From Candidatus Woesearchaeota archaeon (GTDB lineage: Archaea; Nanobdellota; Nanobdellia; Woesearchaeales; JABIAG01): a stretch of 64,000 nucleotides of DNA. Shown piece by piece: positions 25,855-27,629 of this stretch. Position 1 is the first letter of the stretch. Each line of letters begins with the position of its first letter. A model generated the notes under the pieces. The model saw only the letters and a program-made list of their open reading frames with translations, did no database searches and had not been told where the DNA came from. The DNA lies in contig JABIAG010000002.1 of the NCBI GenBank assembly GCA_018653365.1, forward strand, positions 1-64,000. Reading direction: 5' to 3'. A program made the position numbers and the translations under genes.

Positions 25855-27297
25855 ATGAAAAAATTACTGATTTACGCATTATTATTAACACTTTTAGTTA
25901 CTTTTGTTTCTGCAACTGATTTTACTGTAAAGACCACGGCAATAAAGGAGGTAATTGATATTGAAGATGTTGCTTCTTTTGAGCTAGCAATAAAAAACTT
26001 TGGGGTTTCAGACTCTTTCAGAGTTTATTATAATGGTGTTGAATGGGATATTCCTGTAGTATCTTTAGATTTACAGCATAAAGAACAAAAAACAATCACG
26101 GTTAATGCTCGTCCATTATATGTTAATAATGGACAACATGCAATAACACTTAATGTTAAATCTGCTGAAGGGAATGAGGTTGAAAAAATCCCCCTAATTA
26201 TTAATGTGCGAGAAAAAGATATATCCTCTTATCAACCTAGTGTGGGTGTTGTTATTCTCATGCCTGAAGAAACTTCACCAGATAGTGATCTTCCAATAAC
26301 CCTAATTTTTAAGAATAAGAACCCTTTGGAATTGGACGATATTGAAGTTAGTGTTGAAAGTTCACAATTCTCTGAGACTAAATCAATCTCTTTAGAATCA
26401 ACAACCTCAACTCAGGTTGGTGAAGCATCTTTTGATTTAGTATTGCCCTTGGAATCAACGCTTATTGCTGAACCCTTGCTTATTACGTTTACTTTATCAC
26501 ATCAAGATGAAATAATTTATCAAAATCAAAAAAGTGTTAATGTGGTGGGTTTTTCTCCTGATTTTGTAGTTGAGAAGAGGGTTGAGAAATCTTTTTTTAG
26601 AGTTACTGAAGATATTGCAGTAAAAAATTCAGGTAATCAGAATAAGAAACAAGTTTTTAAATTAAAAACCTCGGTTATTAAAGATCTTTTTTCATCTGAA
26701 ACTCCTGATGCAAGCATTTTAAAAGAGGATGGCGCAAGATATCTTTTTTGGGAGTTGGATCTGGAACCGGGGGAAGAATTCGAACTTGTTGTTGTAAGAA
26801 ACTATCGTCCGTTCTTGTTATTTTTGTTAATCCTCATTATTGTCATCACACTTTATTTCTCTCTTAGAAGTCCTCTTGCACTAAATAAAACTGCAGAAGT
26901 TTTTAAGAAGGACGAAGGTGGAATTTCAATGTTAAAGGTTAGGCTGAAATTGAAGAACATCTCTGAAAAAACCGTGAGTGATGTTAAAATTTACGATGCT
27001 ATACCTCACCTTGCAGGTTATGTTCAAGAAGAGCATGTTGGAAGTTTGACTCCAATTAAGGTTTTAAAACATCAACATAAAGGAACCTTGATTAAATGGG
27101 AAATTCCTGTTTTGGAGGGTTTCGAAGAAAGAATAATTAGTTATAAAATTCAGGCCCAACTTAAGATTTTGGGAGGGTTGACCTTGCCTGCAGCTTCAGG
27201 GCGGTTTAAGACTTTAAAGGGTAAGGATCGTTTTTCTAAGTCTAATATTTTTAAGTTATTGCTTAAATCTAAAGATTCTGAAAAGAAACAGCAGTAA
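25855..27297 (+). CDS. Surface protein with CARDB/NEW3-like beta domains and membrane anchor
   Basis: 480 residues: signal peptide (about 1-20), two or three beta-sandwich-like segments with ELAIKNFGVSDSF and LIFKNKNPLELDDIEV that look like CARDB or NPCBM-associated (NEW3) folds, a membrane segment at about 320-341, and a cytosolic C-terminal domain with a DUF11-like KLKNISEKTVSDVKIYDAIP. GAGGGG lies 7 bases before the ATG and a TATA-like TTTATAAAT near 25806 gives a leader of about 20 nt. A surface sensor or anchor is plausible; no catalytic motif. Confidence 0.6.
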   Translation: MKKLLIYALLLTLLVTFVSATDFTVKTTAIKEVIDIEDVASFELAIKNFGVSDSFRVYYNGVEWDIPVVSLDLQHKEQKTITVNARPLYVNNGQHAITLNVKSAEGNEVEKIPLIINVREKDISSYQPSVGVVILMPEETSPDSDLPITLIFKNKNPLELDDIEVSVESSQFSETKSISLESTTSTQVGEASFDLVLPLESTLIAEPLLITFTLSHQDEIIYQNQKSVNVVGFSPDFVVEKRVEKSFFRVTEDIAVKNSGNQNKKQVFKLKTSVIKDLFSSETPDASILKEDGARYLFWELDLEPGEEFELVVVRNYRPFLLFLLILIIVITLYFSLRSPLALNKTAEVFKKDEGGISMLKVRLKLKNISEKTVSDVKIYDAIPHLAGYVQEEHVGSLTPIKVLKHQHKGTLIKWEIPVLEGFEERIISYKIQAQLKILGGLTLPAASGRFKTLKGKDRFSKSNIFKLLLKSKDSEKKQQ

Positions 27298-27369
27298 GAT
27301 TTATAAACGCGTTATTTTTCTTTTTACTTATCCCCGTCTGGCTTAACTGGCTAGAGCACTTGGCTGTAG

Positions 27370-27421
27370 ATGTTGTGTAGAGTTGTCTTTTAAAGACTGA
27401 GATGAAACACGACCAGCTGTT
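27370..27421 (+). other. Canonical-position tRNA-Tyr intron (anticodon loop 37/38)
   Basis: 52 nt. Bulges AGA (27368-27370) and TTA (27420-27422) sit either side of a central helix formed by CTGT and GCTG (one T-T mismatch), with the anticodon stem as outer helix. Inside is a perfect GTCTTT/AAAGAC hairpin. Cutting at AG^A and TT^A gives the loop CTGTAGA. Confidence 0.8.
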
Positions 27422-27443
27422 ACCGAGGGATTCCTGGTTCGAA

Positions 27444-27532
27444 ACGCACCGTAGGAGCGTTTCGCTCAGAACGAAGCCATTTCATGGCGTAGTGATGATG
27501 CGAAATTCATAATCTCTTACTATGCGAGAAAG
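27444..27532 (+). other. Non-canonical tRNA-Tyr intron in the T-loop (59/60)
   Basis: 89 nt. Bulge-helix-bulge: outer helix is the T-stem CCTGG/CCGGG; central helix TTCG with AGAA (three pairs plus G-A); bulges AAA (27442-27444) and AGT (27531-27533); inner helix CGCA with TGCG. Cleavage after the second base of each bulge restores T-loop TTCGAAT. The intron also contains CGAAACGC/GCGTTTCG, CAGAACGAAG, the small hairpin CCATTTCATGG and GTGATGA. Confidence 0.8.
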
Positions 27533-27629
27533 TCCGGGGACGGGGATACACTATTTTATAAGGTTTCTAATATCATTGCTGTATAGTATATGCATAATAT
27601 TTTTAAATAATCTTGCCGCCCAAAATGGT

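Follow-up and report, generated by a model that had tools for sequence, protein, structure and literature searches.

Organization of the tRNA-Tyr gene

The window (the whole stretch of DNA that was analysed, 64,000 nucleotides of a Candidatus Woesearchaeota archaeon) contains a tRNA-Tyr(GTA) gene on its forward strand at 27332-27546, built of three exons in linear order and two introns. Exon 1 (27332-27369; tRNA positions 1-37) carries the anticodon GTA at 27366-27368 and is followed by intron 1 (27370-27421), 52 nt long and inserted at canonical position 37/38. Exon 2 (27422-27443; positions 38-59) ends with the 5' strand of the T-stem, CCTGG (27433-27437), and the T-loop part TTCGAA (27438-27443). 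Intron 2 (27444-27532), 89 nt long, interrupts the T-loop at position 59/60, and exon 3 (27533-27546; positions 60-73) starts with T60 and provides the 3' T-stem CCGGG (27534-27538), the 3' acceptor strand (27539-27545) and discriminator A27546 (A73). The acceptor stem CCCCGTC/GACGGGG has 7 bp and the T-stem 5 bp, one of them G.U. A C1-G72 pair with A73 is typical of archaeal tRNA-Tyr. Both are present here, together with the GTA anticodon, stems of 7, 5 and 5 bp and a single gene copy. The 3' half lies downstream of the 5' half, hence the gene is not a permuted tRNA of the 59/60 type.

Upstream, an ORF for a membrane protein ends at 27297 and on the other side a short ORF runs in the same direction as the gene. 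A TATA-box-like TTTATAAA at 27300-27307, 25-32 nt upstream of the gene, may act as promoter, to judge from its letters and position. The box is part of a 21-nt leader TTTATAAACGCRTTATTTTTC (27300-27320) that is common to tRNA-Tyr and tRNA-Pro(TGG) (L178:200-220, minus strand) and was not seen in the other fetched loci; the two genes that share it are this genome's two 59/60-intron genes.

ARAGORN in intron mode reports no tRNA in the intact gene, which is also missed by the Rfam tRNA model at gathering score. Upon removal of 27444-27532 ARAGORN calls tRNA-Tyr(gta) with a 52-nt intron at 37/38. The two introns proposed by the sequence-only reading are thereby confirmed: the T-loop insert has the length and the borders it gave, and the conventional intron in the anticodon loop is present, although its exact span had to be corrected to 27370-27421.

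The borders of intron 2 can form a bulge-helix-bulge (BHB) motif. The central helix is formed by TTCG (27438-27441, T-loop positions 54-57) and AGAA (27527-27530), flanked by the 3-nt bulges AA|A (27442-27444) and AG|T (27531-27533), which according to the BHB rule would be cut after 27443 and 27532, respectively. On the intron side CGCA (27445-27448) pairs with TGCG (27523-27526) over all four positions, and the T-stem CCTGG/CCGGG serves as outer helix. The geometry that had been read from the sequence thus stands for the outer T-stem, the bulges AAA and AGT and the inner helix; the central helix consists of three pairs (T-A, T-A, C-G) and a G57.A mismatch, rather than of four pairs. When inserts were shuffled with the register kept fixed, an equally good BHB, defined as at least three central and at least four inner pairs, arose in 0.47%. 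The folded pre-tRNA is more stable than 200 out of 200 shuffles (z = -3.3 for the whole gene; z = -4.5 for T-arm plus insert), and the minimum free energy fold shows a 7x7 internal loop between the T-stem and CGCA/TGCG, at the place of the BHB core.

A total of 579 BHB-like excisions was tested on the gene, of which only three restore a tRNA; the highest score is obtained for 27444-27532, the excision that had been proposed, which leaves the T-loop TTCGAAT. The second and third candidates use other registers and also yield a tRNA, as would be expected if the cuts were shifted by one or two nucleotides. The best BHB score is, however, found at the proposed register and relatives agree on AG|T, whereas a mature RNA that kept the insert in an enlarged T-arm would have an 89-nt T-loop, which would destroy the contact with the D-loop. 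We consider shifted cuts or retention very improbable. Splicing of both introns is inferred from these sequence features.

tRNA introns in this genome and in the order

The assembly comprises 1.09 Mb in three contigs and is 94.9% complete by markers. Among the named relatives of the neighbouring Kae1 protein Woesearchaeota MAGs predominate, with ~58-67% identity for the best of them, which marks the organism as a DPANN archaeon of Woesearchaeota type. Another tRNA-Tyr gene was searched for, as the sequence-only reading had advised: the Tyr signature GAGCRNNYGGCTGTAG and a DNA search with tRNA-Tyr each gave one match in the genome, and no second tRNA-Tyr was found among relaxed Rfam tRNA matches up to E = 10 in this 94.9% complete assembly. 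At E <= 0.001 Rfam identifies only 27 tRNAs in the genome, since, as the relaxed search showed, further tRNA genes are interrupted by introns. tRNA-Pro(TGG) (C1:271458, L178) has a T-loop intron at 59/60 with a perfect BHB of 4/4/4 pairs, and the initiator tRNA-Met (L022) a 26-nt intron at 53/54. Computation places two introns in tRNA-Leu(TAA) (L174), at 8/9 and 37/38, a D-loop intron in tRNA-Arg(CCT) (L175), and in tRNA-Val(TAC) (L176) a D-loop intron plus, probably, one at 37/38. Inspection by eye indicates that Ile(TAT), Arg(TCT) and Asn(GTT) are interrupted at non-standard places, the positions in Arg-TCT (~30/31) and Ile-TAT (~29/30) being judged by eye only. Two or more introns each appear to be present in Leu-TAA and Val-TAC (computed) and in Ile-TAT and Asn-GTT (by eye). 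Given several such genes, multi-intron tRNAs are normal in this genome. The idea that they are rare outside Thermoproteales fails in general, as they have been reported from other Crenarchaeota, N. equitans, M. kandleri, Korarchaeum and ARMAN (PMC4033280).

A few loci deserve separate mention. L180 (C1:750890-751031, minus strand) is a probable tRNA-Asn(GTT) with three introns, in the D-loop and before and after the anticodon, for which the single-excision scan gave no clear intron set. L020 (C1:215884-215955; 40.5 bits) is an odd tRNA-like gene, probably Ala(GGC), that has G3-U70, lacks the normal D-loop GG and shows an atypical T-loop GTGCAAG. L012 (C1:472872-472955) is a probable tRNA-Val(GAC) in which position 33 is C rather than U and the 37/38 intron is very short, with 12 nt. 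Short T-loop introns were also sought in the genome with a pattern that left out both the window's 89-nt gap and the Pro motif CGAATG; one match versus one control match was obtained, hence chance level.

The Tyr signature is present in 196 of 353 genomes of the order, a set in which no other genome represents the window's own family. We read 118 motif matches, of which 81 have an intact T-arm, including the DNA-level relatives L026-L028 and L033. A clean 59/60 insert of 22-98 nt was found in at least 21 other sampled genomes, which belong to 14 families other than that of the window. A T-loop intron is not required, as it is absent from most Tyr genes of the order. The 21 loci were picked by T-arm and acceptor only, such that the letters of the intron form an independent test of the pairing. 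Together with the window they show 83 of 88 possible central-helix pairs, versus 37.2 +/- 4.3 in shuffles (maximum 51), and 62 of 88 inner-helix pairs versus 34.4 +/- 4.6. The consensus of these introns is TTCRAA|N...YGAAAG|T. The weak central pair is the fourth, between position 57 and the intron, with a purine-purine mismatch in the window as well as in L073, L076, L105 and L112.

Apparent Tyr matches at L071, L084, L089, L098, L103, L118 and L145 are chance motifs or neighbouring tRNAs and were left out. The 'inserts' of 4-9 nt at L070, L078, L107, L111 and L144 were not counted either; these are probably longer 53/54 introns with a misplaced 5' T-stem. Some other Tyr loci of the order, L069 and L123 among them, do have inserts at 53/54, a second class of T-arm introns that end in GGGAAA|TTCGAG and have the same geometry as the initiator tRNA-Met intron of this genome.

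These data bear on two alternatives. The first holds that the gene is a disrupted pseudogene and that the real tRNA-Tyr is located in the missing ~5% of the genome or lies in pieces elsewhere. The incompleteness of the assembly and the imperfect central helix agree with this, whereas all tRNA stems are intact, the BHB lies at the exact site, there is only one Tyr signature in the genome, and 14 other families have an insert at the same site with a conserved splice motif, which makes a pseudogene highly unlikely. The second considers the T-loop insert a self-splicing or mobile element, such as a group I-like intron or a transposon remnant. Group I introns do occur in archaea including Woesearchaeota (PMC6125680), but inserts of 89 nt here and of 22-98 nt in relatives are too short, none of the Rfam families matches at gathering score and the insert ends in relatives obey the BHB consensus; its probability is close to nil. 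A BHB intron in a working gene is the preferred reading.

T-loop introns are not restricted to tRNA-Tyr. A strict pattern for short 59/60 introns, GGTTCRAN...TGAAAGTCC, matches in 195 of 353 genomes of the order, versus ~16 for the reversed pattern used as control. ARAGORN identifies a tRNA at 28 of 29 pattern loci after excision and at 4 of 29 when unspliced. The isotypes restored include Pro, Phe, Leu, Ser, Asp, Ala, Ile, Arg and others, a few of which are doubtful owing to further introns at those loci. In a sample of the phylum 57 of 103 genomes of the same order match (control 3), versus 6 of 44 genomes of other orders (control 3), which indicates that the pattern is strongly concentrated in this order. 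T-loop introns at 59/60 thus occur in more than half of the order's genomes, which likewise speaks against the rarity argument of the sequence-only reading.

The order's Tyr introns at 37/38 show another feature: they often have a kink-turn-like NGAC...GRAUGAA above a 6-7 bp helix that adjoins the BHB (window 27370-27421 and loci L026-L149). RATGA occurs near the 3' end in 64 of 70 Tyr 37/38 introns (3.7 expected) and the full kink-turn-like geometry in 36 of 70 (0.2 expected). The window's intron 1 has a box-C-like GATGA (27401-27405) at the place of this element and missed the strict test. Archaeal H/ACA guides have a kink-turn 5-6 nt above the pocket, and in Sulfolobus Psi35 of pre-tRNA-Tyr can be made by an H/ACA RNP (PMC7991803). 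As a lead only, the element is a candidate L7Ae site or cis-acting guide for Psi35. Absence of TruD as the reason for a guide-like intron was ruled out: this genome has TruD/Pus7, as do 33 of the 40 genomes searched. The homologue (G000:C3:68322-69158) was matched in three pieces in one frame of 310 aa, which suggests an insertion domain that is shortened, as in many relatives.

Splicing enzymes and a proposed mechanism

The genome encodes a single PF01974 splicing endonuclease (E = 2.4e-31; 177 aa) and an RtcB ligase (E = 2.4e-170), thus both the endonuclease and the ligase expected of a host of BHB introns. Nearly all of 60 relatives likewise have a single strong PF01974 match. In the PDB the endonuclease is closest to 3iey_A, the alpha chain of N. 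equitans, and to 1a79, EndA of M. jannaschii. When aligned with A. pernix alpha, the 177-aa protein lacks the 9-residue insert that includes the K-P-R of the Crenarchaea-specific loop (CSL). A broad-type (alpha-beta)2 enzyme with CSL does not fit, as there is no K-P/V-R/K loop and, a strongly diverged beta aside, no separate beta by PF01974, and at 177 aa the protein is not the ~390-aa three-unit epsilon-2 protein of the ARMAN type. Its size, the context of the catalytic Y/H/K and the absence of the loop fit the alpha-4 type of M. jannaschii, a single catalytic subunit of ~180 aa that assembles as a homotetramer, as the present protein may do.

A structural second subunit that escaped detection would make this an (alpha-beta)2 broad-type enzyme as in N. 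equitans and hence not unusual; such a subunit would bear on the enzyme alone and leave the intron reading intact. It would agree with the N. equitans alpha chain 3iey_A being the closest solved relative, and a beta could be too diverged for PF01974. Yet N. equitans beta (3iey_B) still matches this alpha at 3e-15, so a similar beta should have been found, and PF01974 gives one gene here and a single strong match in nearly all 60 relatives. We regard a hidden subunit as unlikely.

Taken together, we estimate a probability of about 0.9 that this is a working tRNA-Tyr gene with two BHB introns that are cut out by the genome's single alpha-type endonuclease, the exons being joined by RtcB. A single transcript would fold into a cloverleaf with an archaeal, protein-spliced intron in each of two 7-nt hairpin loops, the anticodon loop and the T-loop. 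The conserved T-loop TTCR (54-57) would pair with a YGAA-type sequence borne by the intron and, with the T-stem as outer and the intron hairpin as inner helix, yield a near-standard hBHBh' motif. The alpha-type endonuclease would cut each bulge between its nucleotides 2 and 3 (behind 27443 and 27532), upon which RtcB would join the exons into T-loop TTCGAAT.

Site 59/60 is the T-loop twin of 37/38: in both cases a 5-bp stem closes a 7-nt loop that is cut between nucleotides 6 and 7, and nucleotides 1-4 contribute to the central helix, 5-6 to the 5' bulge and nucleotide 7, adjoining the stem, to the 3' bulge. This could explain how a single loop-less alpha-type endonuclease processes 59/60, and would account for the many tRNA species of the order that have an intron at this site although its type of enzyme is regarded as narrow. 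Alpha-4 endonucleases are considered narrow in specificity (PMC6379350), and broad intron diversity has been linked with special-loop enzymes of the (alpha-beta)2 or epsilon-2 type (PMC6379350, PMC12397907). The initiator tRNA-Met 53/54 and Arg-CCT D-loop introns of this genome have a weak outer helix, hence an alpha-4-type enzyme should cut them poorly. Two readings are open. Either the order's loop-less alpha endonuclease is broader than assumed, which is favoured by the 53/54 and D-loop introns, or 59/60 introns pass as strict BHBs, which fits the geometry of the loops. That Woesearchaeales-type archaea in general combine intron-rich tRNAs, with introns at 59/60 above all and also at 53/54, in the D-loop, at 8/9 and ~30/31, with a lone loop-less alpha endonuclease is a proposition we hold at even odds.

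Known systems and meaning

Position 59/60 is a listed non-canonical intron position of archaeal tRNAs, known in Crenarchaeota (PMC4090602). The non-canonical introns of Crenarchaeota, mainly Thermoproteales, share with the present ones the 59/60 site, the BHB cut rule and coexistence with a 37/38 intron (PMC4090602; PMC8450103). In contrast, the introns described here occur in a different phylum, of Woesearchaeota type, together with a lone alpha endonuclease that lacks the Crenarchaea-specific loop, and recur across isotypes in the stereotyped form TTCRAA...YGAAAG|T. In Thermofilum pendens tRNA-Tyr(GUA) and tRNA-iMet(CAU) are permuted with a BHB junction at 59/60 (PMC3218864); the tRNA species, the junction and the canonical 37/38 intron are alike, but here exon order is normal and we deal with a linear intron rather than a permutation. 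Nanoarchaeum equitans is a DPANN relative that has the nearest endonuclease alpha subunit and split or intron-bearing tRNAs of its own, whereas its alpha-beta enzyme and trans-split genes were not seen here. ARMAN (Micrarchaeota) also have small genomes and introns at many tRNA positions, but the epsilon-2 three-unit enzyme with its ARMAN-specific loop (PMC12397907) is absent here, where the protein has 177 aa.

A literature search, which was not exhaustive, identified no paper that deals with tRNA introns in Woesearchaeales. By itself the gene adds one more case to a class already known; what appears to be unreported is that the T-loop site is used throughout an order in combination with this type of enzyme. 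Besides in Thermofilum, 59/60 is also used by permuted tRNAs in red algae. Its repeated use would find a simple explanation in the geometry that it shares with 37/38.

Standard tRNA finders miss these genes, as a result of which this large DPANN order seems to have gaps in its tRNA sets that are not real. The accepted view that intron diversity goes with the type of enzyme (PMC6379350, PMC12397907) finds a clear test case in the order. If its alpha endonuclease indeed acts alone, broad intron diversity would require neither (alpha-beta)2 or epsilon-2 enzymes nor specificity loops, and the T-loop, as geometric twin of the anticodon loop, would be a second natural home of strict BHB introns.
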